Origin: a virus
Length of the DNA: 64,000 nt
IMG/VR virus record: IMGVR_UViG_3300042367_000228
Span: 308,017-372,016 of that record
Direction: 5' to 3' (one strand)
In this document: piece after piece, positions 11,159-64,000 of the stretch
Numbering within the stretch: position 1 is the first letter of the stretch
How the letters are laid out: each line of letters starts with the position of its first letter
The notes under the pieces: generated by a model
Seen by the model: only the letters and a program-made list of their open reading frames with translations
Told to the model about the DNA's origin: nothing
Databases searched by the model: none
Translations under genes and position numbers: made by a program

Positions 11159-11170
11159 TCCAATCCAGTA

Positions 11171-11200: not shown

Positions 11201-11216
11201 ACTTCTTTCGAGTCAT

Positions 11217-11245: not shown

Positions 11246-11274
11246 TTATTAAACTACTTTAATACAGGTGTAAT

Positions 11275-11999: not shown

Positions 12000-12004
12000 T
12001 TTAT

Positions 12005-12274
12005 ATGACAATAGACGAACTTTTAACTGAATTAACCTTTCACGGTTCACAATGTACTAAAGACTGTAGTGGACATCGCGCAGGCTGGAAATGGGGTAAA
12101 GCCCATCCGAATGTTGCAACAACAAACAGTGCTTCTCATCCAAGTTTTAATAACGGTGTGCGCATTGCTAACGCTAATTCTAAAGTAGTAATGATGCCAG
12201 GTGTGCGTGGTGCAGGTGGTCGTTTTGTTAAGTTTACTCCAGAACCTAAACCATCTAAACGCAATAAACCTTAA
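12005..12274 (+). CDS. Conserved phage protein with 'CTKDCSGH-AGW' motif
   Basis: 89 residues. Leader-like N-terminus MTIDELLTELTF, then QCTKDCSGHRAGWKWGK and SHPSFNNGVRIA, a pattern I associate with marine T4-like phages, of unknown function. Possibly metal-binding (two Cys, several His). A TAAATAATT box just upstream may be a late-type promoter. Followed three bases later by a GGCCCCGCTGTA element. Confidence 0.7.
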   Translation: MTIDELLTELTFHGSQCTKDCSGHRAGWKWGKAHPNVATTNSASHPSFNNGVRIANANSKVVMMPGVRGAGGRFVKFTPEPKPSKRNKP

Positions 12275-12276
12275 TA

Positions 12277-12288
12277 GGCCCCGCTGTA
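12277..12288 (+). repeat. GGCCCCGCTGTA element, copy 1
   Basis: Between the TAA at 12272-12274 and the ATG at 12294; occupies the place where a Shine-Dalgarno would be expected. Confidence 0.85.
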
Positions 12289-12293
12289 CATAT

Positions 12294-13181
12294 ATGAGAG
12301 CATACGAATTTATATTAAAAGAGCTATTAGAACCAAAGAAACCTGGATCAGCTGTTAAAAGTTCAACTGTATCCGTGTCTGGAGCACAAGGGAGTATTTC
12401 TAAAATCTCCCAACAAAAATTTACCACATCTAAAGGAAATGTAGTTAAGGTTTGGTTTAAGCCAACTCAAGCTGATGACGGTAATCCATCAGTTGAAATT
12501 ACGTTTTATGTTAACGACACTGTTTACGATAATTCATCAAGTGAAGGTAAGGATATTGCAAACGATTTTGAAATTTTATCAGGAGTTGGATATCTAGTTA
12601 ATAACACGCTTGACAGAAAGAAGCTTAATCATTGTACATTTTTAGCATACTCGAGCAACCGAGATACTCGAACTAAATTTAATATTCCACTTGAAAAATA
12701 CCTAGTTAAATTAAATCACTCGTTAACAACGTTTTATGATCAAATTGCAAATTTTAATCCTACTCCTGAACAACTATCTGCAGAGTTAGAAAGAAGGAAT
12801 GCATTACTAGCAAGACTTAAAAGACCTTTAGAAACGTCTGTTAATATGGTAGACCCTAACCTAACAAACGCATTATCTCAAATGCATGCGTTTATTAATC
12901 AACCATTTGACGAAACATCTTTAGAACGCTATTCTAAGTTACTTACTGCAATTGAACATTCTTCATCTCACTACGTATATAATAACACCGGTTTTCCTAA
13001 ATTAATTAACGATCTGCATGAATTTAAATTGATAGTAAGAAGTTATTCGAAAGACGGAGCTGAAATTACATCTAATCGTAGAGCGTCAGTATATTCAAAA
13101 TTAATACAAAAGTTCTTTTCAGATAAATGGGATATCAAAACACAAGGTGCTCACTTTACCTTAACCCGCAAACTATCTTAA
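12294..13181 (+). CDS. Capsid-targeted hypothetical protein
   Basis: 295 residues from the ATG at 12294. Leader MRAYEFILKELLE matches the EFI leader type. The rest is a Ser/Thr/Asn-rich soluble protein with no domain I recognise; a helical stretch with PEQLSAELERRNALLARL lies mid-protein. No Shine-Dalgarno is visible because a GGCCCCGCTGTA element fills that position. Likely an internal head protein. Confidence 0.7.
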   Translation: MRAYEFILKELLEPKKPGSAVKSSTVSVSGAQGSISKISQQKFTTSKGNVVKVWFKPTQADDGNPSVEITFYVNDTVYDNSSSEGKDIANDFEILSGVGYLVNNTLDRKKLNHCTFLAYSSNRDTRTKFNIPLEKYLVKLNHSLTTFYDQIANFNPTPEQLSAELERRNALLARLKRPLETSVNMVDPNLTNALSQMHAFINQPFDETSLERYSKLLTAIEHSSSHYVYNNTGFPKLINDLHEFKLIVRSYSKDGAEITSNRRASVYSKLIQKFFSDKWDIKTQGAHFTLTRKLS

Positions 13182-13183
13182 TA

Positions 13184-13195
13184 GGCCCCGCTGTA
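13184..13195 (+). repeat. GGCCCCGCTGTA element, copy 2
   Basis: Starts three bases after the stop of the 295-residue gene; a partial second copy (TGCTGTACACATAT) follows at 13201. Confidence 0.85.
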
Positions 13196-13209
13196 CACTC
13201 TGCTGTACA

Positions 13210-13260
13210 CATATATTCGCACGAATATACTCACGCATTATATAATATACATATAATGCG
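13210..13260 (+). repeat. Two AT-rich hairpins
   Basis: ATATTCG-CA-CGAATAT at about 13213-13228, then GCATTATA ... TATAATGC at about 13236-13260, in the leader space before the promoter at 13271. Confidence 0.5.
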
Positions 13261-13270
13261 CTCATATACA

Positions 13271-13299
13271 TTGACAACACACACTTACACATATATACT
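13271..13299 (+). promoter_or_regulatory. Sigma70-type promoter
   Basis: TTGACA-17-TATACT; for the gene at 13376. Confidence 0.75.
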
Positions 13300-13325
13300 A
13301 TAAGCATAACACGTTGTATGCAATA

Positions 13326-13337
13326 GGCCCCGCTGTA
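13326..13337 (+). repeat. GGCCCCGCTGTA element, copy 3
   Basis: In the 5' leader between the promoter at 13271 and the ATG at 13376. Confidence 0.85.
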
Positions 13338-13375
13338 CACATACACTAAATAATATTATCAATTAAGGAGTAACC

Positions 13376-13582
13376 ATGGAAACGATTTATACTGATAGAA
13401 GAATAGTAGAAACTGGATGTATGTTGTATATGAGAATAATTTCAATTGGTACTAGCATTACTGTCTATGCTTTTAAACATGACGAGTTCCGTTGTGATAT
13501 GGAAATCTTCACCGGCGACAACTACACAGGTAACTTAGAAGAATGGTTGTTACTTCCTGTTAGTACTGCTGCATCTTACTAA
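13376..13582 (+). CDS. Hypothetical protein
   Basis: 68 residues, RBS AAGGAG. Beta-rich, acidic; no domain recognised. A TAAATAATATT box at 13347 may act as a late-type promoter. Confidence 0.6.
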   Translation: METIYTDRRIVETGCMLYMRIISIGTSITVYAFKHDEFRCDMEIFTGDNYTGNLEEWLLLPVSTAASY

Positions 13583-13583
13583 A

Positions 13584-13595
13584 GGCCCCGCTGTA
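13584..13595 (+). repeat. GGCCCCGCTGTA element, copy 4
   Basis: Begins one base after the TAA of the 68-residue gene. Confidence 0.85.
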
Positions 13596-13633
13596 GCATA
13601 TACACGAATAAATAATACTTGTGGAGATATACA

Positions 13634-14524
13634 ATGAGAGCAAGAGAATTTATTGTTGAAGCGGTTAAGCTATCTATTAAAAGTATAGTACCGCCAACAG
13701 ACATTAGTCAAGAAGACAAACAACAGGCATTTGCTAACCTTAGTCAAACTGAAATTGATCAATTAGATCAGCCTAGATACATTTCAAAAGAAATGTGGCC
13801 TCAGTTCCGCAAATGGCTGGTGCAACGCAGTTTAGCAAGTAACCCTACACTTGATCCAGTTCTTACTGCATATACCCCGGGTGAAACTCTTGCTCTCTTT
13901 AAACATCCTGAGATTGCTAAATGGCATCAAGAGATTGTTCATTACAAAGTTCCTCCTGAATACAAAATGGTAGCATTTGTTCCTTGTGGCAAAACTAAAC
14001 CCTGGGCCAATGCAGCACGCGGCATTTACAAAAGCTACAATCAAATCATAAAAGACAAAAGATATCCGGTATACTTTGTAACGGTATCTGAACCACTAGG
14101 AATTGTTCCAAGTAGTCTTTGGAGTGATTTCCCTCAATACGATAATCCGGGTTTATTTAAAGATGATACTCAGCAATCCGGAGGATTGTTTACAGCTGAT
14201 TGGAAACAGTACTATGGTACAGGTAAACAGAAAATGCCATTTGATCCGGCAGCCTATTCTCAGTGTATCCAATTTTTAGGTAATATCATTAATCAGTTTA
14301 TTGAAAACAATCCGCAAGTTCAATATGTTAGTTTTGTTGAAGATAAGATGTTTAAGGCTAGTTCTAACAATGTTGGAACACATAGTGCAATGCTCTCCCA
14401 TACCAATAAAATAGATCCTGCGCATCGTTACCTGAAACGAGCCGCACCACGTGAAGAACCATATAACTATGTGGATCAATCTCTTTCAACTCATTTCGAT
14501 AAACCGGAATCCGATCAACCATAA
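13634..14524 (+). CDS. Capsid-targeted protein with DUF5591/TGT-like domain
   Basis: 296 residues from ATG with RBS GGAG. Leader MRAREFIVEA is the best match here to the T4 capsid-targeting sequence. Residues about 120-230 carry VPCGKTKPW, YFVTVSEPLGIVPSSLW and FPQYDNPG, which resemble the archaeosine-synthase-related DUF5591 fold (CSATKPY ... SPLGVVP ... YD). A role in deazaguanine chemistry is speculative. Packaged protein likely. Confidence 0.68.
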   Translation: MRAREFIVEAVKLSIKSIVPPTDISQEDKQQAFANLSQTEIDQLDQPRYISKEMWPQFRKWLVQRSLASNPTLDPVLTAYTPGETLALFKHPEIAKWHQEIVHYKVPPEYKMVAFVPCGKTKPWANAARGIYKSYNQIIKDKRYPVYFVTVSEPLGIVPSSLWSDFPQYDNPGLFKDDTQQSGGLFTADWKQYYGTGKQKMPFDPAAYSQCIQFLGNIINQFIENNPQVQYVSFVEDKMFKASSNNVGTHSAMLSHTNKIDPAHRYLKRAAPREEPYNYVDQSLSTHFDKPESDQP

Positions 14525-14540
14525 TTGGTAAAAATACCAC

Positions 14541-14569
14541 TTGACATTCTGCTGTAAACATTGTATAGT
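14541..14569 (+). promoter_or_regulatory. Sigma70-type promoter
   Basis: TTGACA-17-TATAGT with no gene for almost 500 bases downstream. Confidence 0.8.
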
Positions 14570-14734
14570 GTACGCATAACTACAGCAGGTGTCGCGCAAA
14601 CTGTATTATCTATGCGCCCTATAACTGGACAGATGTATCACAGTGATGGAATTGTTGAACTGTAGCAACGACATAACCACCTACCCATTTGGATGAACAT
14701 GAGATGTACCTTTACAAAACTCATTACAGGTTAT

Positions 14735-14746
14735 GGCCCCGCTGTA
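14735..14746 (+). repeat. GGCCCCGCTGTA element, copy 5
   Basis: In the gene-free interval 14525-15065, just before a run of hairpins. Confidence 0.85.
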
Positions 14747-14980
14747 CACGTAAGGTTAAAAGAAGGAGTAGCACTCCTACGACTGATTATATGGTTAGCA
14801 TTGTATAATCAGTCCGCCGTCATATATCACCAGGACGGAGCTCGAGGTACCGGATGACCGCCTCTGTAATGCTCTAATGCTAAGACAAAAAACGAACTCG
14901 ACAAATGTCTTTTTTGCCACATGGCCTAGTTGGGCCATTGTGACTATTTGAATCTGACAAAATGAAATAAAAGAAAAATA

Positions 14981-15046
14981 AAATTATAATAATTGATATG
15001 AGTGCCAACGAATATAAAATTATTATAATTTAGGACTATAGTCCTT
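14981..15046 (+). repeat. Inverted repeat plus palindrome before an RBS
   Basis: AAATTATAATAATT (14981-14994) with its complement (15018-15031), then palindrome AGGACTATAGTCCT (15033-15046) directly upstream of ATAGGAG and ATG 15066. Could terminate transcription or gate translation. Confidence 0.55.
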
Positions 15047-15065
15047 TATACCTATAGGAGAAATT

Positions 15066-15284
15066 ATGATTGAACTAGCACCACTATCTGATTATAAGAT
15101 GTCATACGACAAAGCCTGGTTGTATTGTGCTACCTTGACCTATAAGAACAAATACGATTGGCGTATTCCGACTGATGCCGAGTTTACATATAACGAAGAA
15201 ATTGATGAAGAATCTTTTGATCAATCAGACGAACCACATCATAGCCATTGGCGTGTTCAACCAGTGAGGACTAAAGATGCTTGA
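15066..15284 (+). CDS. W-R-L-P-T mini-protein, copy 4
   Basis: 72 residues, RBS AGGAG. Starts MIELAP; YDKAWLYCAT, YDWRIPT, QPVRTKDA. Overlaps the next by eight bases. Confidence 0.75.
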   Translation: MIELAPLSDYKMSYDKAWLYCATLTYKNKYDWRIPTDAEFTYNEEIDEESFDQSDEPHHSHWRVQPVRTKDA

Positions 15285-15501
15285 GTTTGCCCCAATGCCG
15301 GCCGGCCGGTTCTCATTTGATGATGCCTGGTTATATTGTGCTACACTAACATATAATAACAATTATGACTGGCGCATACCAACTGAAGATGAATTTTGCA
15401 ACTACGAAGAAATTGATTGCGATGCGTTTGATCAGAATGATGAAGGTCTTAAGATAGCTAAAGTAACACATAAAATCTGTCCAGTGCGCACTGCTGATTA
15501 A
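15277..15501 (+). CDS. W-R-L-P-T mini-protein, copy 5
   Basis: 74 residues. MLEFAPMP, FDDAWLYCAT, YDWRIPT, CPVRTAD. Very similar to copy 4 (shared EEID-x-x-x-FDQ), a recent tandem duplication. Confidence 0.75.
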   Translation: MLEFAPMPAGRFSFDDAWLYCATLTYNNNYDWRIPTEDEFCNYEEIDCDAFDQNDEGLKIAKVTHKICPVRTAD

Positions 15502-15509
15502 AATACCAT

Positions 15510-15538
15510 TTGTAAAGTCCTAAGTTTTGCGCTATAAT
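15510..15538 (+). promoter_or_regulatory. Early promoter
   Basis: TTGTAA-17-TATAAT, preceded by the cassette lead AAATACCAT; RBS AAGGAG follows. For 15561. Confidence 0.85.
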
Positions 15539-15560
15539 AATGTTTTATGTAAGGAGCCAT

Positions 15561-15851
15561 ATGCTAGTAGCCACTTGTCAATCAAAATTTATAACGTATG
15601 CCGAAGCTGTTATGTATTGTTTGTTTTTAGATCACCAAGGAAAGAAAGGCTGGCGGTTGCCAACTTTACTTGAATGGGCAGATACTGCAGATGGCAGACT
15701 TACAACTAATACATGGTATCGAGAGAGTACGAATGAAGAACGAGCATTGCTTGCAAAACAATACAAACATACCCAGCAAGCTATAGAAGCTATGATTGAA
15801 CCATATGAAAATCGTAAAACAGGTATAGCAGTTGCAGTGAGGGATGAATGA
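15561..15851 (+). CDS. W-R-L-P-T mini-protein, copy 6
   Basis: 96 residues from ATG after AAGGAG. YAEAVMYCLF, GWRLPT, AVAVRDE. The variable middle is about 20 residues longer than usual and helical. Confidence 0.72.
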   Translation: MLVATCQSKFITYAEAVMYCLFLDHQGKKGWRLPTLLEWADTADGRLTTNTWYRESTNEERALLAKQYKHTQQAIEAMIEPYENRKTGIAVAVRDE

Positions 15852-16075
15852 TAGAAATATTAGCTAACCCACCTGGGATCAGTCGGAAGTTATATAATCG
15901 CGATGCAGCCTTTTTGTATATAATTACTCTAGTCCATAATGGACATGCAGACTGGCGATTTCCTACTCCAGACGAATGGGTTAACAGTCCTTTAGCGTAT
16001 ATGGCATGGCATCAAGGAAGAATTGATGACGATAGATTTTTCAGCTATCACATATACCCAGTGAGAGATATATGA
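15848..16075 (+). CDS. W-R-L-P-T mini-protein, copy 7
   Basis: 75 residues. RDAAFLYIIT, DWRFPT, YPVRDI. ATGA overlap with copy 6 and with copy 8. Confidence 0.72.
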   Translation: MIEILANPPGISRKLYNRDAAFLYIITLVHNGHADWRFPTPDEWVNSPLAYMAWHQGRIDDDRFFSYHIYPVRDI

Positions 16076-16266
16076 TTAGATTTGCTAAACCATCCGGATG
16101 GTTAAACAACACAACTCCGGAAGCTGCTGACATGCACGTATTGTTTTATGAAGAAGACGGTTTAAAATACTGGAGGAGAGCAACTAACGAAGATTTTATT
16201 GACTTTGCAATACACGTTCCTGAATCATTGTTATCTAATACATGTATTCCGGTAAAGGATTTATGA
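16072..16266 (+). CDS. W-R-L-P-T mini-protein, copy 8 (divergent)
   Basis: 64 residues. Core decayed: ADMHVLFYEEDG, WRRAT in place of WRLPT, IPVKDL. Still in frame with ATGA overlaps, so probably expressed. Confidence 0.62.
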   Translation: MIRFAKPSGWLNNTTPEAADMHVLFYEEDGLKYWRRATNEDFIDFAIHVPESLLSNTCIPVKDL

Positions 16267-16484
16267 GTATGCTTGAATTAGCCCCGCCATCAGAAAAAAT
16301 GACATATGACGAAGCAATTATGTATTGCTTTTGGTTAGAACACGATGGAAAGAAAGGCTGGAGAATGCCAACACATGAAGAATGGGCAAAGACTAAAGGC
16401 ATCATGGTGTACACTTGGAGACAGAATGATCACCGTACGATGATGGATACGATGCCTGTAGTACCGGTAAGAGGACAATTATGA
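16263..16484 (+). CDS. W-R-L-P-T mini-protein, copy 9
   Basis: 73 residues (ATG in the ATGA overlap; a second ATG at 16269 is possible). YDEAIMYCFW, GWRMPT, VPVRGQL. Confidence 0.72.
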   Translation: MSMLELAPPSEKMTYDEAIMYCFWLEHDGKKGWRMPTHEEWAKTKGIMVYTWRQNDHRTMMDTMPVVPVRGQL

Positions 16485-16894
16485 AATGGTTTAACCGAAT
16501 ATTCAATCGCAATGTATATTTAAAATTTGACGTACCTACAAACCCTCCAGACAACAACAGAGTGCGTTATGTTGTAGGAGTCCCGGTTAATCACTATGAG
16601 AAAAAAATCATTGAAATCGTTTATACTGGAATACTATGTTCCAGTGATGATGAAGCAACGATGCATTTGTTTATGATGAGTAAGCATGATGGAAAGAGAG
16701 GATGGCGACTACCTACAATACACGAAGCTATATACTGTTCAGAGCTATCAGTAGTTAAGCATTTCTCTGATTGGAATTCACTTAGAGTTCCATTAGAATT
16801 AGTTTTAGTAAGAGATGTTACAGAAGATGAGTATAACTATTACAATGGACCTATAACACGTTTCTTTAAGCAGTTTGCGCAGTGGACTTATTGA
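16481..16894 (+). CDS. W-R-L-P-T family fusion, copy 10
   Basis: 137 residues. About 50 extra N-terminal residues (MKWFNRIFNRNVYLKF ...) precede the family core (DDEATMHLFMMS, GWRLPT, LVRDVTEDE), and a 20-residue aromatic tail follows. An unusual fused member. Confidence 0.65.
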   Translation: MKWFNRIFNRNVYLKFDVPTNPPDNNRVRYVVGVPVNHYEKKIIEIVYTGILCSSDDEATMHLFMMSKHDGKRGWRLPTIHEAIYCSELSVVKHFSDWNSLRVPLELVLVRDVTEDEYNYYNGPITRFFKQFAQWTY

Positions 16895-16925
16895 TAGCTA
16901 AATAGCAGACAATAAGGAGAGTGTT

Positions 16926-17909
16926 ATGTCAAAAGAAGAAGTAGGTACAGGTGTAAGCCAAGAAGAGTCAGTTACGCTTAATGGCGTAACAGTAACAGAA
17001 GAATCACATGCTGATGTATATGCTGAAGCACACGCAGGTGCAAGTGCAGAAGTAACTGATACAAGTGTATCGGCAGAAGCACACGCAGGTGCAAGTGTTG
17101 GTGCAGAAGCCGGTGCAAGTGTTACTTTAGGTGATGTTACATTAGAAGCTGAAGCACACGCTACTGCTGAAGTTGAAGCCACTGCTAACGCAAATGCAGG
17201 ATGGACAGGTACAGATGTAGTAGCTGAAGCAAGCGCAGGTGTTGAAGCGCGTGCAGAAATTGGTGCAAGTGCATCAGTTGGTAATGAAGATGTTGGCACA
17301 GTTAGTGTTTCGAGTGGTGCATACGCAGAAGCTAATGCAGGTGTTGAAGTAAGTGGTTCAGTTGGATTACACGGCGCACAAGGATATGCCGGAGCATCAG
17401 TTGGTGCAAGTGTTGGTGTAGAAGCTAATGCAGTAGCAGAAAGCCATGGTGTGTCTGCTGAAGCAGGTGCAGGTGTTAGCATTGGATTACAAGCAGGTGC
17501 AGAAGTTGGCGGTAAAGCTGAAGTACATGGCAACACTATTAGCATCGGTGTAGAAGGTGAACTAGAGTTATTAGCAGGTGTAGAACTTAATGCTGAATTA
17601 TCAGTTGATACTACTCCAGTTGTAGAATTAGCAGAACAAGTAGCCGATGACACTGCAAAGCTAGCAGAGCAAGCAGCGTTAGAAGCAGCCCGCATTGCTC
17701 AAGCAAAAGCAGAATACGCTGCTCGCGTTGCCCAAGAAGAAGCAGAACACGCAGCTAGAGAAGCACGAGAAGCATCAGAAAGAGCAGCTAGAGAAACACA
17801 AGCCGCAGCTGAAAGTGCAGCTAGAGAAGCAGATCGTTTAGCTAGAGAAGCAGCCAATCGTGCAGCAAATGAGATGAATAAAGCATTTAAAAAAGTAAAG
17901 TTCTGGTAA
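16926..17909 (+). CDS. Ala/Gly/Glu-rich repeat and coiled-coil protein
   Basis: 327 residues, RBS AAGGAG. Residues 1-225 are low-complexity repeats of A-E-A-x-A-G-A-S type, possibly a beta-solenoid. Residues 230-315 are a long Ala-rich coiled coil (AAREAREASERAARE). A fibre, scaffold or DNA-condensing role is possible; not recognised. Codon use is very regular (GCA, GAA, GTT), typical of repeat expansion. Confidence 0.72.
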   Translation: MSKEEVGTGVSQEESVTLNGVTVTEESHADVYAEAHAGASAEVTDTSVSAEAHAGASVGAEAGASVTLGDVTLEAEAHATAEVEATANANAGWTGTDVVAEASAGVEARAEIGASASVGNEDVGTVSVSSGAYAEANAGVEVSGSVGLHGAQGYAGASVGASVGVEANAVAESHGVSAEAGAGVSIGLQAGAEVGGKAEVHGNTISIGVEGELELLAGVELNAELSVDTTPVVELAEQVADDTAKLAEQAALEAARIAQAKAEYAARVAQEEAEHAAREAREASERAARETQAAAESAAREADRLAREAANRAANEMNKAFKKVKFW

Positions 17910-17911
17910 AA

Positions 17912-17923
17912 GGCCCCGCTGTA
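17912..17923 (+). repeat. GGCCCCGCTGTA element, copy 6
   Basis: Two bases after the TAA of the coiled-coil gene. Confidence 0.85.
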
Positions 17924-17933
17924 ACATGTATAG

Positions 17934-17968
17934 AGTAAACTTTCAGTTGACAAATTGTAAAGTTTACT
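17934..17968 (+). promoter_or_regulatory. Candidate operator (inverted repeat) over a promoter
   Basis: AGTAAACTTT (17934-17943) and AAAGTTTACT (17959-17968) flank the -35 box; a dimeric regulator could block the promoter at 17947-17975. Confidence 0.5.
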
Positions 17969-17975
17969 TTATACT
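17947..17975 (+). promoter_or_regulatory. Sigma70-type promoter
   Basis: TTGACA-17-TATACT; for 18017. Confidence 0.85.
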
Positions 17976-18016
17976 TTAATTTGTTTTAAGCAATCACACA
18001 GTAAAAAGGAGAAGTT

Positions 18017-18277
18017 ATGCACAAAATTATCTTATCCGCACTCAAATCTGGTGCAAAAACTCCGATAGAGCTTTATGATCTGTGTAGATGTGATCCATAT
18101 GATTTCGCAAGGATGCTAACTGATTTAGCTGATGCTGAAAAGATCGAACGACGCATTATTATTCCTAATCACGATCAAGTATATCGTTCACTAACACTAA
18201 TCCCTAACAACGTAATTGATGGATTGCCATGGGAAGTTATTCGGATAGAATACCGCTTGACAAACAAAACACACTAA
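18017..18277 (+). CDS. Small winged-helix-like protein
   Basis: 86 residues, RBS AAGGAG. The pattern ILSALKSGAKTPIELYDLCRCDPYDFARML resembles a winged helix-turn-helix. With a palindrome over its own promoter it could be an autoregulator (inference). Confidence 0.58.
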   Translation: MHKIILSALKSGAKTPIELYDLCRCDPYDFARMLTDLADAEKIERRIIIPNHDQVYRSLTLIPNNVIDGLPWEVIRIEYRLTNKTH

Positions 18278-18285
18278 TTTATAAT
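18257..18285 (+). promoter_or_regulatory. Sigma70-type promoter
   Basis: TTGACA-17-TATAAT, the -35 inside the end of the preceding gene; for 18314. Confidence 0.85.
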
Positions 18286-18313
18286 AAACACTTAACAACC
18301 GCAGGAGCTATAA

Positions 18314-18535
18314 TTGAAAATGCTAGAAGGAACAAATCAACAAGGCGATTTCGTAGTTATGTATGACGAAGAAACTTTATTAAATCAAAACTATTGGGAT
18401 TGTGATTGTTCGCATGAGTATATAAGACCCGTAACTGAACATCATTGCCAAGAATGCGGAGCTGATCGTGACGATAGTGAAATATCACACGAAGTCGAAG
18501 TTCAGCAACTTGTTTATAAAATAATTATTCACTAA
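18314..18535 (+). CDS. Zinc-ribbon-like protein
   Basis: 73 residues from a TTG seven bases after AGGAG; an ATG at 18320 is the alternative. Cys pairs in NYWDCDCSHEY and HHCQECGADRDD suggest a zinc ribbon. The protein at 33169 is a paralog (YWECSC ... CPRC). Confidence 0.62.
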   Translation: MKMLEGTNQQGDFVVMYDEETLLNQNYWDCDCSHEYIRPVTEHHCQECGADRDDSEISHEVEVQQLVYKIIIH

Positions 18536-18549
18536 CAATGGAGGTAACT

Positions 18550-19620
18550 ATGCCGAATACACTTGAAACCACTGCTATTGCTATTTTAGAAGGAGAAGTA
18601 ACTACCACTACTATTTCCGATTCTGATTCACTCGAATTAATTGAACATCTGCAGGCATGGTTACCAAACTATCCTAAAGGCTCAAACAAATTTATTTCTT
18701 TCTTGCAACACAATGTATCGCCATTGTATGCAATATACGGTGTTTACTCTGCAGTTGATAATGGCAGCTTAGAGTTAACTTCACGTAACTTTCAATCTAT
18801 GATGCTATTTGAATCGGAGTTTAAAGACTTAATTAAGCATTTTGAGAATCCAGATAAGAAGACTAACTTCTTTGAATCGATGCGTAATGGTACTGAGATA
18901 TCAAGAGTGGAATTAGAATTAACCAGTCCATTCTGTATCCAACCTGAAGATGAGATCGGTACCGGTACATGGGAATACGTTGAACCCGAGTTACCTGAGA
19001 TTGATGATGACGATACAACAAATCCAGCTACTACGACAACCGCAAGTGCTCCTGGTACTATTCAAATTCCGTTAAAAGATATTCTTGATACTGCTGCTAA
19101 GAAGGTATTTGGTGTAGGAGTTAAAAAGACAGTTGCTGAAAAAGATCAAGAACAAGATGATCATGATGCATACTATGTATATACACAGTATTTGTATCAG
19201 TTCACTAGTGCATGGTTCCCTAACGACGCTCCTACTATCAATGTAGTATCGCAAAAGTTTTGGGATGAACATGAATGTATTGATGATCAACACATTTCAG
19301 AGTACTTAGAATCGATTATTCCAGATTGGTCTAATAACTGGTGTGAAACTACGGACAGTGTATTTGAATACACTGGCGGTTCAACTAAAGCAGAAGCTAT
19401 TGCTTATTTAAAAGCAACAGGGTTCTTTAAAGAAGAAGAACTATTTGATGTTGATGATGAAGAATCTGATAAAACAGATATCTTACTAAGTTATCTTGAA
19501 GGTCAACCTGAAGAAGTAATTTCTAAGTTTCTCAAAGAGGCACTTACACATCTTGATGATAGCCAAATTCAAGACTTAATTCAAAAGTATGAAGACGTTT
19601 GGCACGAAGAGGATGAATAA
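18550..19620 (+). CDS. Acidic hypothetical protein
   Basis: 356 residues from ATG after GGAGG. Strongly acidic with an Asp/Thr-rich linker (IDDDDTTNPATTTTASAP) between two halves. No domain recognised. Rarely this long in the early region. Confidence 0.68.
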   Translation: MPNTLETTAIAILEGEVTTTTISDSDSLELIEHLQAWLPNYPKGSNKFISFLQHNVSPLYAIYGVYSAVDNGSLELTSRNFQSMMLFESEFKDLIKHFENPDKKTNFFESMRNGTEISRVELELTSPFCIQPEDEIGTGTWEYVEPELPEIDDDDTTNPATTTTASAPGTIQIPLKDILDTAAKKVFGVGVKKTVAEKDQEQDDHDAYYVYTQYLYQFTSAWFPNDAPTINVVSQKFWDEHECIDDQHISEYLESIIPDWSNNWCETTDSVFEYTGGSTKAEAIAYLKATGFFKEEELFDVDDEESDKTDILLSYLEGQPEEVISKFLKEALTHLDDSQIQDLIQKYEDVWHEEDE

Positions 19621-57443: not shown

Positions 57444-57722
57444 ATGTCAAATTCTCGTATAGCAACATTAAACTCATTCGTAGCAGCCACTAAAGCAACT
57501 GCTATTACCGTCCCATACACTATGTCAACATTCTATCGTCCATGTCCGGGATATGAACTAATCCTAACTGATGGATGGTATAGCTACTTTGCAGACGATA
57601 TTGAAGTAACGAGTGCAGGTGTTATATTTTACCACGACCTCGAAGGCAACTTACACGAAGCAGAGTGGGGCGATGGCGAGGAGTATAGCATACACTGTGA
57701 ACTTGAAGTAGCAACCGCATAA
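57444..57722 (+). CDS. Hypothetical protein
   Basis: 92 residues from ATG; leader AGCGTGTATAAAACT without Shine-Dalgarno (a GTG at 57432 is the alternative). No domain recognised. Confidence 0.6.
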   Translation: MSNSRIATLNSFVAATKATAITVPYTMSTFYRPCPGYELILTDGWYSYFADDIEVTSAGVIFYHDLEGNLHEAEWGDGEEYSIHCELEVATA

Positions 57723-57734
57723 CTCATAACACGG

Positions 57735-57760
57735 CGAGCACCTAGCGTGCTCGTTTTTTT
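57735..57760 (+). terminator. Strong hairpin terminator
   Basis: CGAGCAC ... GTGCTCG followed by seven T. Confidence 0.88.
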
Positions 57761-57761
57761 G

Positions 57762-57870
57762 GTCGTCCCTGAACCGGAATGCCGGTCCTATGAGCTACCA
57801 CCATTTTGGTTTTATTTATCATCGATATATCGGTCCTAGGATATAATCGGCATTCCGGTTCAGGGACGAC
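57762..57870. repeat. 23-base inverted repeat with CCGGAATGCCGG motif
   Basis: 57762-57784 is the exact reverse complement of 57848-57870. Each arm holds ACCGGAATGCCG / CGGCATTCCGGT, and the 63-base interior has TCGATATATCGGTCC (57822-57836). Confidence 0.85.
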
Positions 57871-57901
57871 ACGGGGCGCGGAACTGCGATAAAATTACCA
57901 C

Positions 57902-57930
57902 TTTACAACCAATACGCAGTTTGCTATAAT
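57902..57930 (+). promoter_or_regulatory. Early promoter
   Basis: TTTACA-17-TATAAT; for 57979. Confidence 0.87.
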
Positions 57931-57937
57931 ATGTGCA

Positions 57938-57959
57938 AGTTAGCAATAGTGCTAACTTA
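57938..57959 (+). promoter_or_regulatory. 5'-UTR stem-loop
   Basis: AAGTTAGC-AATAGT-GCTAACTT just before the Shine-Dalgarno-less leader of 57979. Confidence 0.65.
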
Positions 57960-57978
57960 TAACTATAGCGTGTATATT

Positions 57979-58173
57979 ATGCAAAAACAACTATATATCC
58001 CAAGTGCCGCACGTATTGCTTACATTAACACGCTTACACGCCGTTTGCGTACACAAGCCAAAAACTCTAAATCGTTTCTCGAAACAAACAATGCAATCAA
58101 CAAGTTCTATGTAGAGGAACTTGAAGCTGCGGACGCAGTAGCGCGTGGCGAATATGTAGAACACGCAGGATAA
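57979..58173 (+). CDS. Hypothetical basic helical protein
   Basis: 64 residues; leader TAGCGTGTATATT then ATG, no Shine-Dalgarno. Basic helix (LTRRLRTQAKNSK). Confidence 0.58.
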   Translation: MQKQLYIPSAARIAYINTLTRRLRTQAKNSKSFLETNNAINKFYVEELEAADAVARGEYVEHAG

Positions 58174-58180
58174 AAACTGC

Positions 58181-58209
58181 TTGCTAACTTGTACATAGTT
58201 TGCTATAAT
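58181..58209 (+). promoter_or_regulatory. Early promoter inside a long dyad
   Basis: TTGCTA-17-TATAAT. TTGCTAACTTG (58181) is complemented by CAAGTTAGCAA (58215), plus ACATA/TATGT inside. For 58273. Confidence 0.88.
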
Positions 58210-58272
58210 ATGTGCAAGTTAGCAATGTTGCTAACTGTTACAAAACTTTATATAACTTTCGGAGCGTATCGT

Positions 58273-58677
58273 ATGTCAAAATTACTAAAAAACACTGTTA
58301 ACGCAATTAACGCAATAGTAAACAGCAAAACCGAGGAGTTCAAGCTTCCAGCTTATGTGGTGCTTGCTGATGTTAAACGACGCAACGCGGAAAACGAATG
58401 CTTGTACAACGAACAGCAGTTACTTGCTGGGGAAGCGTTGTTAGCAGGTATTGAGGATGTGTACTTATGCAGTAGAGTTTTTTTGAACTACAGACAACGC
58501 TTTATTGCAGTTAAAGTCAACGCACCGAGCTTTAAGGACAAAGTAAGTTTACGCGCTGCGAAACTAGATGCGTGGTGCGATGCAAACGGCATTGTTAAGG
58601 AGTATACGAGACACGGACACATTGTATACAGAGCTAACACGGACGCACTGGATAACATAAGCACAGTGGCTGCATAG
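58273..58677 (+). CDS. Hypothetical protein
   Basis: 134 residues, RBS CGGAGC. Mixed alpha/beta, basic; stop TAG merges into a GGCCCC element. No domain recognised. Confidence 0.62.
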   Translation: MSKLLKNTVNAINAIVNSKTEEFKLPAYVVLADVKRRNAENECLYNEQQLLAGEALLAGIEDVYLCSRVFLNYRQRFIAVKVNAPSFKDKVSLRAAKLDAWCDANGIVKEYTRHGHIVYRANTDALDNISTVAA

Positions 58678-58688
58678 GCCCCGCTGTA
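58677..58688 (+). repeat. GGCCCCGCTGTA element, copy 15
   Basis: Its first G is the G of the TAG stop of 58273-58677. Confidence 0.88.
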
Positions 58689-58726
58689 CATATACACACG
58701 CGCAGGCTACACGGTAAACAAAGTGC

Positions 58727-58755
58727 TTGCAATGCGCGTGTGTATAGCGTATAAT
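58727..58755 (+). promoter_or_regulatory. Early promoter
   Basis: TTGCAA-17-TATAAT; for 58788. Confidence 0.86.
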
Positions 58756-58787
58756 ATGTTTTTACATTAAAGCAAAACGGAGCGCAA

Positions 58788-58943
58788 ATGCAATACAATA
58801 ACACTTACCCACAACGCCCATATTGCACTACGTGCGGGGACTTAGAGGTACTATACAACATGGAAACAGATGAGCTTGAACCATGTTGGGATTGTGAGCA
58901 AACTGAATCAAATGACTTTAACGATAAAGCGGAGCGTGTATAA
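58788..58943 (+). CDS. Small zinc-ribbon-like protein
   Basis: 51 residues, RBS GGAGC. YCTTCGDLE and PCWDCEQ give four Cys. TAATG overlap with the next gene. Confidence 0.62.
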   Translation: MQYNNTYPQRPYCTTCGDLEVLYNMETDELEPCWDCEQTESNDFNDKAERV

Positions 58944-59209
58944 TGGCAACAGGTATCATGAACAACGAAGTTAAACAAAAACAAGCAGCCGAACTAGCTC
59001 AACGCGTAGCAATGTTCTTAGCAACCGGCGGCGCAATTAAAACGACTAAAACGGGACGCAGAGGACGCACAACTGTTTCACAAGTCCACACTCCCCGAGT
59101 TGTGGTAGTAGAGAAACAACGATACACATGGGACGAGGCTACACAGGATTTGGCATCAATGGGCTTGTTGGACAAACAGGTAAAAGCTGCTATCAAAGCA
59201 CGCCGATAG
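58943..59209 (+). CDS. Hypothetical basic protein
   Basis: 88 residues; its RBS GGAGC lies in the preceding gene. Basic centre (KTTKTGRRGRTT). No domain recognised. Confidence 0.6.
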   Translation: MATGIMNNEVKQKQAAELAQRVAMFLATGGAIKTTKTGRRGRTTVSQVHTPRVVVVEKQRYTWDEATQDLASMGLLDKQVKAAIKARR

Positions 59210-59218
59210 GAGAGCAAC

Positions 59219-59584
59219 ATGACTATACAGACGCAGTTGAGAAACCATATTAAGTTTCTAAGTACCTTAAATGAGAACTTAGATGCAATCCACAACTCCA
59301 TACAAGAGAACAATGAAGTGTTCCGGTTAGTATCGAGTGGCTTCCAAAGACTCCCTGCTAAGGATCGCAAGACAGCTTCGAAAGTAATGTTAGATCAAAT
59401 ATCAATACACACTAACTGCCAGCAAATGGATGTAGTCACAATAGTCGAGCAACTCCATTATACAAGTTTAATCGGTACAGTGAGTACAACGGAAAGTGAT
59501 GTGTATGACTTAGTGTACTGCATTGATATTCCAACAATGATCAATCGTATGAAACATCAACACGCCAGTTTAATGACAATGTAG
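59219..59584 (+). CDS. Hypothetical protein
   Basis: 121 residues, RBS AGGAGAG. Helical; no domain recognised. Confidence 0.6.
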   Translation: MTIQTQLRNHIKFLSTLNENLDAIHNSIQENNEVFRLVSSGFQRLPAKDRKTASKVMLDQISIHTNCQQMDVVTIVEQLHYTSLIGTVSTTESDVYDLVYCIDIPTMINRMKHQHASLMTM

Positions 59585-59596
59585 AAACTCCGTTGA

Positions 59597-59624
59597 ACGG
59601 GCGCAGTGATGCGCTCGTTTTTTT
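59597..59624 (+). terminator. Strong hairpin terminator
   Basis: ACGGGCGCA-GTGA-TGCGCTCGT followed by six T. Confidence 0.87.
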
Positions 59625-59638
59625 GAACAGTATTATAA

Positions 59639-59650
59639 CCGGCATTCCGG
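59639..59650. repeat. CCGGCATTCCGG site
   Basis: Palindrome-like 12-mer of the right-end family, next to copy 16 of the GGCCCC element. Confidence 0.75.
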
Positions 59651-59654
59651 ATAG

Positions 59655-59665
59655 ACCCCGCTGTA
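59655..59665 (+). repeat. ACCCCGCTGTA element, copy 16
   Basis: Truncated copy between two CGGCATTCCGG sites. Confidence 0.75.
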
Positions 59666-59676
59666 TATGTGTGTAC

Positions 59677-59754
59677 CGGCATTCCGGTCCGTGGTTGAAT
59701 CAGTTAATCGGCATTCCGGTCCGTGGTTGAATCAGTTAATCGGCATTCCGGTCC
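59677..59754 (+). repeat. 32-base tandem repeat carrying CGGCATTCCGGTCC
   Basis: Two perfect 32-base units (59677-59708, 59709-59740) and a partial third; each begins CGGCATTCCGGTCC. Confidence 0.88.
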
Positions 59755-59802
59755 AGGGACAATTCCATATGCATCACCGGCATATCGCATACGTGATCAC
59801 AC

Positions 59803-59832
59803 GGATATAAACTTGTAAAATAAATTTGCATT
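59803..59832 (+). repeat. 30-base direct repeat upstream of promoter (copy a)
   Basis: Same sequence at 60860-60889, ending in the TTTGCAT -35 region of each promoter; includes TATAAACTTG and AAAATAAATTTGCA. Confidence 0.8.
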
Positions 59833-59853
59833 GTTTGTTGTTTACTGTATAAT
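59826..59853 (+). promoter_or_regulatory. Early promoter
   Basis: TTGCAT-16-TATAAT (17 if TTTGCA); GTAGCAATATTGCTAC stem-loop follows. For 59898. Confidence 0.78.
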
Positions 59854-59897
59854 AAGCATTGTAGCAATATTGCTACGTTAACTTAAAAGTGTATATT

Positions 59898-60248
59898 ATG
59901 CAAACATTAAACACAGCAACAAAAAACGCAATTAACACAACAACAGCTAACACAAGCAAAGTGCCCGGAATGTATCCGAGCAACACGAGTATACTGGCAC
60001 TATTGGCGGACGCTGGGTTTGCCGAAGAGTGGAGCACAACGACACATCCGACGCACGTGGTATTAAAGATAGCAGCGATATACAACGAGCATAAGGCAGC
60101 AGTTGAGGACATTTGGAATAACGATGCTGCAATGGATGCGTGTATAGCGGAAGTTGAGGAGCATGCGGACTTAGTGGACTACATAAACTACACGGCACTG
60201 CAGGACGCAGTGTTTGTGTACGATTGCTTATGCTGCAGCGGACTATAG
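59898..60248 (+). CDS. Hypothetical acidic protein
   Basis: 116 residues from ATG after GTGTATATT, no Shine-Dalgarno. Thr/Asn-rich start, Cys at the end (VYDCLCCSGL). Confidence 0.58.
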   Translation: MQTLNTATKNAINTTTANTSKVPGMYPSNTSILALLADAGFAEEWSTTTHPTHVVLKIAAIYNEHKAAVEDIWNNDAAMDACIAEVEEHADLVDYINYTALQDAVFVYDCLCCSGL

Positions 60249-60309
60249 AGTAACACGAAGCACACGGACGTGCAAACAAACTAACTTAATGATAATTTGG
60301 AGCGTAAAG

Positions 60310-60483
60310 ATGAAAACGGTACAAGAATATACAGCAGTATTGAGCGCAAGACTAATTGATACACGAAGCCGTAGACAAGCCGAACGCACACGGGATGCCA
60401 TACTACGCGAACGCCGCGAGAATAAAGAAACAATGAAGTATGCGGACTTTGTGGCGCTTAGAGCTAGCGCGTTAGTAGACTAA
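60310..60483 (+). CDS. Hypothetical basic helical protein
   Basis: 57 residues, RBS TGGAGC. Arg-rich (RSRRQAERTRDAILRERRE). Confidence 0.6.
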   Translation: MKTVQEYTAVLSARLIDTRSRRQAERTRDAILRERRENKETMKYADFVALRASALVD

Positions 60484-60497
60484 TTGGAGAGCGAACA

Positions 60498-60704
60498 ATG
60501 ACTACGCTATTTGTTTTGAAAGTTATGATGTTTATTGGCGCACAGGAAATTGAGAACACATTCATATATCCAACTGAAGCGGAGTGCCAACAACACCGGG
60601 CGATGGAAGTACAGCTACTAGACAGACTGAACGAAACGGTACTAACAGGGTACGCGACACGATGCGATGTGGCAAAGGACAGTGATATGGTTAACACGAA
60701 GTAG
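60498..60704 (+). CDS. Hypothetical protein with N-terminal hydrophobic segment
   Basis: 68 residues, RBS TGGAG. MTTLFVLKVMMFIGAQE could be a signal or strand; two Cys (EAECQQH, ATRCDV). Resembles small phage proteins with 'Y-x-T-x-x-x-C' of unknown role. Confidence 0.58.
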   Translation: MTTLFVLKVMMFIGAQEIENTFIYPTEAECQQHRAMEVQLLDRLNETVLTGYATRCDVAKDSDMVNTK

Positions 60705-60718
60705 TGATTTGTGAACTA

Positions 60719-60743
60719 ACGGGCACTTCGGTGCTCGTTTTTT
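60719..60743 (+). terminator. Terminator with TTCG loop
   Basis: ACGGGCAC-TTCG-GTGCTCGT plus six T. Confidence 0.9.
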
Positions 60744-60760
60744 ATGGCATGTCATTATTC

Positions 60761-60839
60761 GACATATCGGTCTCGGGACACAATCGATATATCGGTACAG
60801 ACATAGCATCGGCATTCCGGTTTCTCGATATATCGGTCC
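60761..60839 (+). repeat. Cluster of four CG-x-AT-x-CGGT sites
   Basis: GACATATCGGTC (60761), TCGATATATCGGTA (60784), TCGGCATTCCGGTT (60809), TCGATATATCGGTCC (60825): two versions of one semi-palindromic site. Confidence 0.8.
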
Positions 60840-60859
60840 TTCGGCGGCTGCGGATCCAT

Positions 60860-60889
60860 GGATATAAACTTGTAAAATAAATTTGCATT
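60860..60889 (+). repeat. 30-base direct repeat upstream of promoter (copy b)
   Basis: Identical to 59803-59832. Confidence 0.8.
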
Positions 60890-60910
60890 TTGTTTTTACT
60901 ATGCTATACT
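60883..60910 (+). promoter_or_regulatory. Early promoter
   Basis: TTGCAT-16-TATACT; GTTAGC-AATAAC-GCTAAC stem-loop follows at about 60919. For 60963. Confidence 0.78.
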
Positions 60911-60962
60911 ATGTGCAAGTTAGCAATAACGCTAACTGTTAACTTAACTATAGTACACTACA

Positions 60963-61148
60963 ATGCAAAATACTAAACAACAACAAGTTACACGTTTTTT
61001 AAACAAACAAGCGCAAGCACACAAACAACAATACAGCACTGCGGCACAAACGGGCTTTATGGATCACGTAGTAACAGCTTTGGAGTTTATGATTGTTGCG
61101 GTTCCGTTTGCTATTGCAATAGTTGGATTTTGCGGTGCATTTAATTAA
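60963..61148 (+). CDS. Tail-anchored membrane protein
   Basis: 61 residues, Gln-rich N-half, C-terminal membrane helix (FMIVAVPFAIAIVGFCGAF). No Shine-Dalgarno (leader CTATAGTACACTACA). Confidence 0.6.
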   Translation: MQNTKQQQVTRFLNKQAQAHKQQYSTAAQTGFMDHVVTALEFMIVAVPFAIAIVGFCGAFN

Positions 61149-61158
61149 TAAAAAACGC

Positions 61159-61186
61159 TTGCAATTTAAAATAACAAGCGTATAAT
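61159..61186 (+). promoter_or_regulatory. Early promoter
   Basis: TTGCAA-16-TATAAT; CGCTTG ... CAAGCG dyad around the spacer and GCGTGTTAA ... TTTAACACGC stem-loop in the leader. For 61253. Confidence 0.76.
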
Positions 61187-61252
61187 ATAAAGCGTGTTAA
61201 GCAATAACGTTTAACACGCGCTTTTTAACAATTTAACTATAGTGTGTATATT

Positions 61253-61612
61253 ATGCAAACAATAACAGCTACGTGCAAACAAGCACAAAAAAACAGTAAT
61301 AACGCAATGCAACAAGCAATGCTGCAAGTGCTTAATGCTTATGTTGCAACAAACAAAGTAACAGCAACAAAGCAAAAACACGCTAAAAAAGTAACTTACA
61401 CAGCAAATAAAAACTATGTTTTATGCTATGTAACACGCGCTTTTGTTGCAAATATTTGTTTTGCAAGTGCTAACAGTGTAAGTTATACGCTAACACTTGC
61501 GCAAAATGCTAACTTAACGCAAGCAAATATTAACAATGCTTACATTAAGTGTGTAACTAAAAAAACGTTTAACAAGTATGTTAACAAAGTTAAAAACACT
61601 GTAATTAACTAA
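61253..61612 (+). CDS. Asn/Lys-rich basic protein
   Basis: 119 residues from ATG after GTGTGTATATT, no Shine-Dalgarno. Biased to Asn, Lys, Ala, Thr with GCAAAC/AACAAA codons; a very skewed composition against its neighbours. Confidence 0.6.
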   Translation: MQTITATCKQAQKNSNNAMQQAMLQVLNAYVATNKVTATKQKHAKKVTYTANKNYVLCYVTRAFVANICFASANSVSYTLTLAQNANLTQANINNAYIKCVTKKTFNKYVNKVKNTVIN

Positions 61613-61621
61613 GCAATAAAT

Positions 61622-61655
61622 AATGCAAGCACTTTTTACAGTGCTTGCATTTTAA
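61622..61655 (+). terminator. Hairpin terminator
   Basis: AATGCAAGCACT ... AGTGCTTGCATTTT. Confidence 0.85.
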
Positions 61656-61678
61656 CACTACAAATAGGAGTAACGACA

Positions 61679-61756
61679 ATGGCAAGACGATCAGACCGAG
61701 CAACTACAGCAAACAAAAAAGCAGTTCGTCGAGTACTAAGACGTAACAAGAAGTAG
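61679..61756 (+). CDS. Very small basic peptide
   Basis: 25 residues, RBS AGGAG. MARRSDRATTANKKAVRRVL, nearly half Arg/Lys. A short nucleic-acid-binding peptide is possible. Confidence 0.5.
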   Translation: MARRSDRATTANKKAVRRVLRRNKK

Positions 61757-61762
61757 TAAATA

Positions 61763-61774
61763 GGCCCCGCTGTA
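61763..61774 (+). repeat. GGCCCCGCTGTA element, copy 17
   Basis: Six bases after the stop of the 25-residue gene; followed by GCAT as in copy 4. Confidence 0.85.
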
Positions 61775-61810
61775 GCATTACATGATATTGAAACGTATGG
61801 CACACATTGA

Positions 61811-61820
61811 CCCCGCTGTA
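61811..61820 (+). repeat. CCCCGCTGTA element, copy 18
   Basis: Preceded by TTGA rather than AGG. Confidence 0.75.
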
Positions 61821-61935
61821 CGGATACCTTAACTAACATTTCTATCTACCATACCTAATACACACGCTCCACTTAACCCTGTATGTGCCGCATAACACAT
61901 ATGGGGTTTCCTTTTGATCGATCCATCAAACATAA

Positions 61936-61948
61936 CGGCATTCCGGTC
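61936..61948 (+). repeat. CGGCATTCCGGTC site
   Basis: Single copy of the right-end motif. Confidence 0.75.
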
Positions 61949-61992
61949 ATTGGAGACTCTTGGAGGTTTGGTATTCGATAAACTAACTATAC

Positions 61993-62022
61993 TTGACTAT
62001 TCGAAATGCCATATGCTATAAT
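61993..62022 (+). promoter_or_regulatory. Promoter followed at once by an element
   Basis: TTGACT-18-TATAAT; the element CCCCGCTGTA begins two bases after the -10, at the expected transcription start. Confidence 0.6.
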
Positions 62023-62023
62023 A

Positions 62024-62033
62024 CCCCGCTGTA
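62024..62033 (+). repeat. CCCCGCTGTA element, copy 19
   Basis: Directly downstream of a TATAAT box. Confidence 0.75.
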
Positions 62034-62248
62034 ACATAGCACGTTTTAGTATATGCGTGTAACACTTACACAATATTAAAACAATATATGTAAAATTTAC
62101 GTTTTAACGCATGTACACAGCACGTTTATACACTAAGCAATACAGCTATAGCACTATACACAATAAAACAGCTTACACGCAAATTTTGCGCTAGTTAGTA
62201 TGGATTGTATGATATTCCATATAGAGGAATCACCATGCTATATCAATA

Positions 62249-62258
62249 CCCCGCTGTA
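62249..62258 (+). repeat. CCCCGCTGTA element, copy 20
   Basis: Preceded by ATA as in copy 19. Confidence 0.75.
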
Positions 62259-62281
62259 AGGTTACACGGTTAAACACATAC

Positions 62282-62310
62282 TTGCATTTTATACGTTTAC
62301 TTGCTATAAT
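62282..62310 (+). promoter_or_regulatory. Early promoter
   Basis: TTGCAT-17-TATAAT; for 62342. Confidence 0.84.
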
Positions 62311-62341
62311 ATATTTTTTTAACTTACTTACTATAACAACA

Positions 62342-62476
62342 ATGCTAACACAAAAATTATATATGTATAACATGTCCAGCGCAACCAAATTGCGTGTAAT
62401 GATGACACACGGTGATGCAGCCGCTAGACTAATCACAAAGGTTAAACGAGTTAAAGGATATCAGGCCCCGCTGTAG
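62342..62476 (+). CDS. Small basic protein ending in a GGCCCC element
   Basis: 44 residues, no clear Shine-Dalgarno. The last four residues Q-A-P-L and stop TAG come from CAGGCCCCGCTGTAG. Confidence 0.52.
   Translation: MLTQKLYMYNMSSATKLRVMMTHGDAAARLITKVKRVKGYQAPL
62464..62475 (+). repeat. GGCCCCGCTGTA element, copy 21 (in-frame, gives stop)
   Basis: Read in the third frame relative to copies 7 and 9; its TA plus the next G forms the stop of 62342-62476. Confidence 0.88.
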
Positions 62477-62751
62477 GATCGTGTGGGCAGGCTAGGATTG
62501 AACAGGCATCTGGTTAGGTGCCTGATACACACAAACTATGCAACCGGAATGCCGATAGCTTTTATTATATCTAAACCGATATGTCGATGAAGGTACAGTG
62601 GAACGGATTGGTAGGTGCATGGATGGTATTAGAATGGAACGATTTGACATCGAATGGTTGACATCGGTACCGGCCGTTATGGTGTATACGATTACGGTAC
62701 GAATTAAGTGTGTGTTTTATTATGCACTGTTTTGGTGCTATAAAACAAAAT
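62477..62751. other. Gene-free interval between convergent regions
   Basis: Holds ACCGGAATGCCGA (62543) and ACCGATATGTCGA (62575), inverted copies of the right-end motif, then A/T-rich sequence; no gene seen. Confidence 0.5.
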
Positions 62752-63473: not shown

Positions 63474-63819
63474 AATATCACCTATTTAAAGTATGTTATG
63501 CGCTTTTTTTGTGCATACTTAATGCACAATAAATGCGCGTTAAAAGTAAAGTAAAAATAAATTGTTAAAAAGCTAACTTAAAAATGCGTTTTTTTATGCG
63601 CTTGTTTTTTTAAGTTGTGCATAGTTTACAGCATATAAAAAAAAAGTAAAATTTAATTGCAATTTATTTTTACAATTTAGCACTAAAAATGCGCATTTTT
63701 AAAAAAAGTGTATAAAAAACAATAACTTATAATTTAAAAATAATTTTATTTAATGCGCATTTTTTGCGCATAATGCGCATTTATAGCGTTTTTAATGCGC
63801 ATTTTTAGTGCTATATATT
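63474..63819. other. Very AT-rich region with ATGCGCAT palindromes
   Basis: No gene. Exact ATGCGCAT at 63689, 63753, 63773 and 63795, with partial copies (TGCGCA, ATGCGCG, ATGCGTT) from 63500 on, in A/T-rich surroundings. Confidence 0.65.
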
Positions 63820-64000
63820 GCAAGCGCATAGCAAGCGCATAGCAAGCGCATAGCACAGGCCCCGCTGTTAGCGCATAGCAAGCGCATAGCATAGCAAGCG
63901 CATAGCATAGCAAGCGCATAGCATAGCAAGCGCATAGCATAGCAAGCGCATAGCATAGCAAGCGCATAGCATAGCAAGCGCATAGCATAGCAAGCGCATA
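63820..64000. repeat. Tandem repeat array AGCAAGCGCATAGCAT
   Basis: Three 11-base units AGCAAGCGCAT, then a GGCCCCGCTGTT insert, then about seven 16-base units AGCATAGCAAGCGCAT running off the window. The open minus-strand frames across it are repeat artefacts. Confidence 0.9.
63858..63869 (+). repeat. GGCCCCGCTGTT element, copy 22 (inside tandem repeat)
   Basis: CAGGCCCCGCTGTT (14 bases) interrupts one repeat unit; both sides continue the unit. Confidence 0.88.

Follow-up and report, generated by a model that had tools for sequence, protein, structure and literature searches.

The stretch of DNA analysed here (the window, 64,000 nucleotides) comprises positions 308,017–372,016 of the virus record IMGVR_UViG_3300042367_000228, which totals 372,016 bp. 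Portal homology (approximately 48–51% to Phosso, CBB and PA5oct), together with prohead protease and T4 baseplate families detected with Pfam, places the phage among the jumbo phages of the T4 superfamily. Near the end of the window, short near-palindromic sites occur in five groups (A, three sites; B, five; C, four; D, one; E, two), which are listed below with the predicted terminators and promoters around them.

57444..57722, plus strand: 92-aa gene preceding cassette A; no counterpart in relative G003 (locus L152), and placed differently in relative G004 (locus L153; 31% identity)
57733..57760, plus strand: intrinsic terminator of cassette A; stem 57733–57755 (scan), 3' arm GCTCG followed by T7, T-run ending at 57760
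57762..57870, no strand assigned: array A, a 109-bp inverted-repeat element; sites at 57773 (−), 57821 (+) and 57846 (+)
57902..57930, plus strand: sigma70-like promoter after array A (TTTACA-17-TATAAT; promoter scan)
59592..59624, plus strand: terminator hairpin and T-run of cassette B, recognised by eye and not in the scan; GCTCGTTTTTTT at 59613
59638..59789, plus strand: array B with an exact 32-bp tandem repeat; sites at 59638, 59675, 59707, 59739 and 59776
59825..59853, plus strand: sigma70-like promoter after array B (scan)
60718..60743, plus strand: intrinsic terminator of cassette C (scan, plus a copy of GCTCGTTTTTT)
60758..60837, plus strand: array C; sites at 60758, 60783, 60808 and 60824
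60882..60910, plus strand: sigma70-like promoter after array C (scan)
61934..61947, plus strand: single site D, between a terminator-like stem (61875–61908) and a promoter (61993–62022)
62543..62588, minus strand: site pair E, both sites on the minus strand, between converging gene sets and without a clear promoter

Both repeats named in the preliminary description of this DNA are present. The arms of the 23-base inverted repeat (57762–57791 and 57841–57870) match over 30 nt at 90%, the outer 23 nt being perfectly complementary by reading, and the two units of the 32-base tandem repeat (59677–59708 and 59709–59740) are 100% identical. The same description had every site following a terminator; this applies to A and C by scan, to B by eye and to D with its terminator-like stem, and does not extend to E, which has no T-run.

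The terminator 3' arm and tail, GCTCGTTTTTT, occurs three times in the whole genome (both strands), once before each of A, B and C, and is absent from the related loci L152, L153 and L249. The distance from the T-run to the first site is 12 nt in A, 13 nt in B and 14 nt in C, and the last site precedes the first promoter hexamer by 42 nt in A, 35 nt in B, 44 nt in C and 45 nt in D; the value for B depends on the degenerate site at 59776 and becomes 72 nt if that site is left out. The promoter blocks of B and C (59800–59854 and 60857–60911) are 80% identical over 55 nt. Because the scan for sigma70-like hexamer pairs returned 31 against 18.6 ± 3.7 expected, a modest enrichment, individual promoters are not proven. 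Group E deviates from this layout in its orientation as well as at its promoter. By sequence, A, B and C are three similar copies of a predicted composite cassette, which consists of a terminator, a site array and a sigma70-like promoter.

Clustering and probable constraint of the 14-bp sites

Fifteen distinct sites were found between window positions 57773 and 62588 (14-mer consensus A[TC]CG[GA][CT]AT[TA][CT]CGGT), 12 on the plus strand and three on the minus strand, in agreement with the roughly 14 semi-palindromic sites in both orientations first described. With the pattern CGRYATWYCGGT and at most one mismatch, the window yields 17 matches, all within 57773–62586, against a shuffle expectation of 1.50 ± 1.16 (largest value 5 in 100 shuffles); two of the 17 are opposite-strand readings of palindromic sites, hence the count of 15. 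In the genome-wide motif count that had been proposed as a check, the exact 12-mer core appears 14 times in the record, 13 of them clustered in this region rather than scattered, and the lone match elsewhere lies inside a 2158-aa ORF at 75514. A third-order Markov model predicts 0.42 exact matches per genome and 0.0055 per 4.9 kb. Chance origin of the cluster is excluded.

No near match to the sites was found among 50,697 phage records. The 14-mer alone matched at least 119 stretches in the viral_contigs set, one of them on contig G001, which derives from the same phage. A paired-site pattern was found on two viral contigs, G001 and L253, the latter without any match to this genome, as well as on 20 bacterial contigs.

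The core columns CG, AT and CG are invariant in all 15 sites, and the flanks are near random. Nine sites belong to type I (CGGCATTCCGG), five to type II (CGAYATATCGG), and the site at 59776 is a hybrid. The positions at which the two types differ match each other, a pattern that common descent rather than function could explain. Successive sites are spaced by 48 and 25 bp in A, by 37, 32, 32 and 37 bp in B, by 25, 25 and 16 bp in C and by 32 bp in E, and thus follow no single helical phase. The claim that sites fall only in non-coding gaps holds outright for the five sites outside a naive ORF mask (at least 40 aa); the other ten lie within four ORFs of 41–70 aa, which are treated as spurious because they have no match in the relatives L151–L153.

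A 40-bp block common to arrays A and C is composed of a type II site, 11 nt, a type I site and 1 nt. Across this block the site bases are identical (28/28), and the seven differences are all located in the 11-nt spacer (P = 1.8e-5 for random placement, a post hoc value for one array pair). Confinement of the differences to the spacer favours constrained sites over neutral leftovers, as judged from this pair. Arrays also grow by duplication, as indicated by the 32-bp unit exactly repeated in tandem in B and by the inverted copy within A.

Such duplications, the 30-nt inverted one included, are what would be expected if the sites were extragenic palindromes of the REP or MITE kind, dispersed neutrally through segmental duplication and slippage and tolerated only in non-coding space. 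Their lineage specificity, their two orientations and the placement of several of them in long gaps also fit this explanation, but the A and C sites have stayed unchanged while the spacer between them was randomised, the shared unit is just about 14 bp long, and the first site keeps a set distance of 12–14 nt from the terminator. We consider neutral palindromes rather unlikely. REP and BIME elements are short extragenic palindromes that lie in both orientations downstream of genes. The sites here are likewise short palindromes located 3' of genes in both orientations, but they number just 15, have a unit of about 14 bp, are restricted to one region and stand beside promoters as well as 3' ends.

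When folded as single-strand DNA and compared with shuffles, array A gave z = -10.1 and array C z = -2.6, and arrays B and E folded no better than shuffles. Within-site covariation was considered as evidence for hairpins and rejected, since the two site types may share descent and only array A clearly beats shuffles. A search of Rfam matched no known RNA at the arrays.

The record end and related phages

The arrays had been described as lying near the right end of a genome. The same short tandem repeat is found at both record ends, and the 47,588-bp contig G001 is 100% identical first to positions 342,960–372,016 and then to positions 1–18,659, thereby spanning the junction. At L152 and L249, both junction sides are matched within a single contig; at L153, the left side alone is matched. 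Because G001 and related phages run through the junction, the record end is an assembly break rather than a physical end: the genome is circular or circularly permuted, the break falls within the tandem repeat, and the junction is internal on the molecule. In G004, a 372,173-bp relative, the homologous stretch is likewise internal, at 36–57 kb.

The junction region itself (window 63480–64000 and the left end of the record) is AT-rich and carries the tandem repeat AAGCGCATAGCATAGC and TTGTTG hairpins where gene sets converge; each of the three relatives examined has a recognisable version of it. Cumulative GC skew turns at the junction, and the turn coincides with converging transcription. As a candidate place for an origin or terminus, this region is better than the arrays.

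An exact-site search of the 11 records reached via loci (G001–G011) found 13 sites in G001 and none in the other records. Allowing up to one mismatch to an 11-mer, matches and control matches numbered 8 and 8 in G002, 8 and 12 in G003, 17 and 25 in G004, 17 and 8 in G012, and 3 and 2 in G013; none was exact, the counts for G002, G003, G004 and G013 are near those of the control, and the 17 in G012 are scattered. Four related phages lack the site family, which on this comparison appears to be lineage-specific.

These results bear directly on the suggestion that the sites are replication-origin iterons, or centromere or packaging sites near a genome end. A single region of 4.8 kb does contain iterated dyad sites, and it lies 1.4 kb from an AT-rich, tandem-repeat junction at which the skew turns. 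However, the junction is internal, the relatives retain its region without any sites, genes, terminators and promoters stand among the sites, and the skew turn is where transcription converges; moreover, iterons should persist at the corresponding position in close relatives, and G002, G003 and G004 have no exact site. We regard this suggestion as highly improbable, and origin, packaging and partition roles were rejected on the artificial contig end and the absence of sites from relatives. What survives of the initial proposal of protein binding is a real set of clustered, iterated sites between genes, the binding of which is plausible.

Among the 12 neighbouring genes, ten have their best matches in the same order in G003, which lacks the gene preceding cassette A. 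The corresponding figures are nine, in the same order, for L249, whose contig begins inside the region, and eight, in changed order, for G004. G003 and G012 have one additional gene at the gap of array C; at gap B, genes are neither gained nor lost, and the two phages have a common, different spacer with a poly-C tract, of which there is none in G000. In the part of G004 that was read, a promoter/stem-loop unit recurs seven times. At L152 (approximately 11685, 15200 and 16190) and L249 (approximately 1740), equivalent gaps hold ACCGACC-type motifs followed by about 10–13 C; this combination appears to be another lineage-specific intergenic element of related phages.

A putative binding-site array in an early-region cassette

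Promoter early stem-loops (PeSLs) of T4-type phages were reportedly treated by Arbiol and colleagues in 2010 and by Comeau and colleagues in 2014. The cassettes described here resemble them in combining a terminator stem-loop with a sigma70-like early promoter, in repeated copies, within an early region of a T4-superfamily phage where genes are shuffled. Terminator and promoter share one intergenic unit at A, C and D by scan and at B with the terminator recognised by eye, E having no promoter, and several similar copies stand in this hyperplastic early region, to which the threefold terminator arm is restricted. Variation of the neighbouring genes between relatives is uneven: changes are seen at A and C and not at B, and gene order is shuffled in G004 and kept in G003. 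Unlike PeSLs, the cassettes have a near-palindromic site array added between terminator and promoter. A PeSL is a terminator-promoter cassette that shuffles early genes in T4-type phages, a description that PMC4503421 supports.

With moderate confidence, we interpret the locus as a PeSL-like unit of terminator and promoter, specific to this lineage and located in the early hyperplastic region, to which an array of putative protein-binding sites has been added. The array would form the variable middle of a composite early-region cassette present in three similar copies; two other gaps hold smaller groups of sites. Terminator and promoter may insulate adjacent early transcription units in PeSL fashion, and cassettes would be copied (probably by recombination), shuffled and replaced as genes are gained or lost. 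The most likely ligand of the 14-bp sites is a protein, sequence-specific and probably dimeric, that might influence either the promoter some 80 bp downstream or terminator read-through. A dimeric DNA-binding protein is the simplest account because the sites are short, near-symmetric and iterated, with invariant CG, AT and CG columns. Among 320 small and mid-sized ORFs, Pfam revealed no DNA-binding regulator family (best 25 families for two of the three ORF sets).

PeSL-type shuffling might also operate without any binding protein, the sites then being short homology patches whose sole role is recombination between cassettes. Array A does flank a gene that is missing from G003, and an extra gene occupies the array C gap in both G003 and G012; but identities of 14 bp are, as a general matter, short for homologous recombination, and the neighbours of gap B are conserved in both phages. 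We think it distinctly unlikely that this accounts for the sites.

In cluster A mycobacteriophages, stoperators are short conserved sites, many per genome, with a consensus that varies between related phages (PMC6550527). The sites here are similar in being short, conserved and multi-copy and in differing in sequence between related phages. They differ in being near-palindromic CGG sites confined to about 5 kb, with 12 of 15 on one strand rather than asymmetric sites in one orientation, and in the absence of a repressor or any sign of a temperate lifestyle among the Pfam families listed. More tentatively, and as a rather unlikely reading, this would be a virulent T4-superfamily jumbo phage with an operator network of its own, in which a putative early regulator binds 14-bp arrays between terminators and promoters. 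The site sequence would belong to this lineage alone and be exchanged as a whole in sister phages, implying rapidly rewired specificity and stoperator-like logic outside temperate phages.

If the preferred reading is correct, the array is a third part added to the known T4-type terminator-promoter cassettes, and the arrays could serve as DNA bait for an early regulator of this huge phage, in which almost no early gene has a known function. Should the sites turn out to be neutral, the region still shows clearly how closely related phages can differ by wholesale replacement of their intergenic spacers. A narrow literature search returned no account of repeated palindromic intergenic motifs with early promoters in jumbo phages.

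Other elements in the window

A second repeat, AGGCCCCGCTGTA, occurs at 22 places between 12279 and 63868 of the window and also in G002, G003, G004, G012 and G013. The form CCCCGCTGT is present 22 times in the genome, always on the plus strand and always in the 320–372 kb arm, and the plus/minus counts of RCCCCGCTG in the relatives are 14/0, 10/0, 19/0, 0/8 and 0/8, with 0/0 in the distant G014. A stop triplet lies at most 15 nt upstream in 38 of the 52 copies of the AGGCCCCGCTGTA family read (five sequences), and some copies sit within a promoter spacer or the tandem repeat. This conserved repeat, whose orientation resembles that of stoperators, phage promoters or RNA signals, is possibly more interesting than the 14-bp sites.

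An array of small proteins is encoded at 11275–52554 (plus strand), and Lcl_C, a domain whose role here is unknown, was matched by 21 of the 120 scanned; by sequence, the array would represent a large paralogous expansion. The motif PVRD occurs 23 times in all and within the last eight residues of 18 of 506 ORFs. Its use as a C-terminal signal tag was considered and set aside; it is more likely the end of the repeated Lcl_C domain, given those 21 matches and presuming that both protein sets are the same.

The stretch at 62024–62200 (plus strand) is non-coding, is conserved in G003 and G012 from TAAAATTTRCGTTTTAACGC onward and has copies of CCCCGCTGTA on its flanks, making it a possible small RNA. 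At 14589–14733 (plus strand), Rfam matched the Polynucleobacter-1 RNA (RF01718; 59.6 bits against a cut-off of 37), the match stopping 3 nt before a copy of CCCCGCTGTA; this RNA may hint at a Polynucleobacter-like host.
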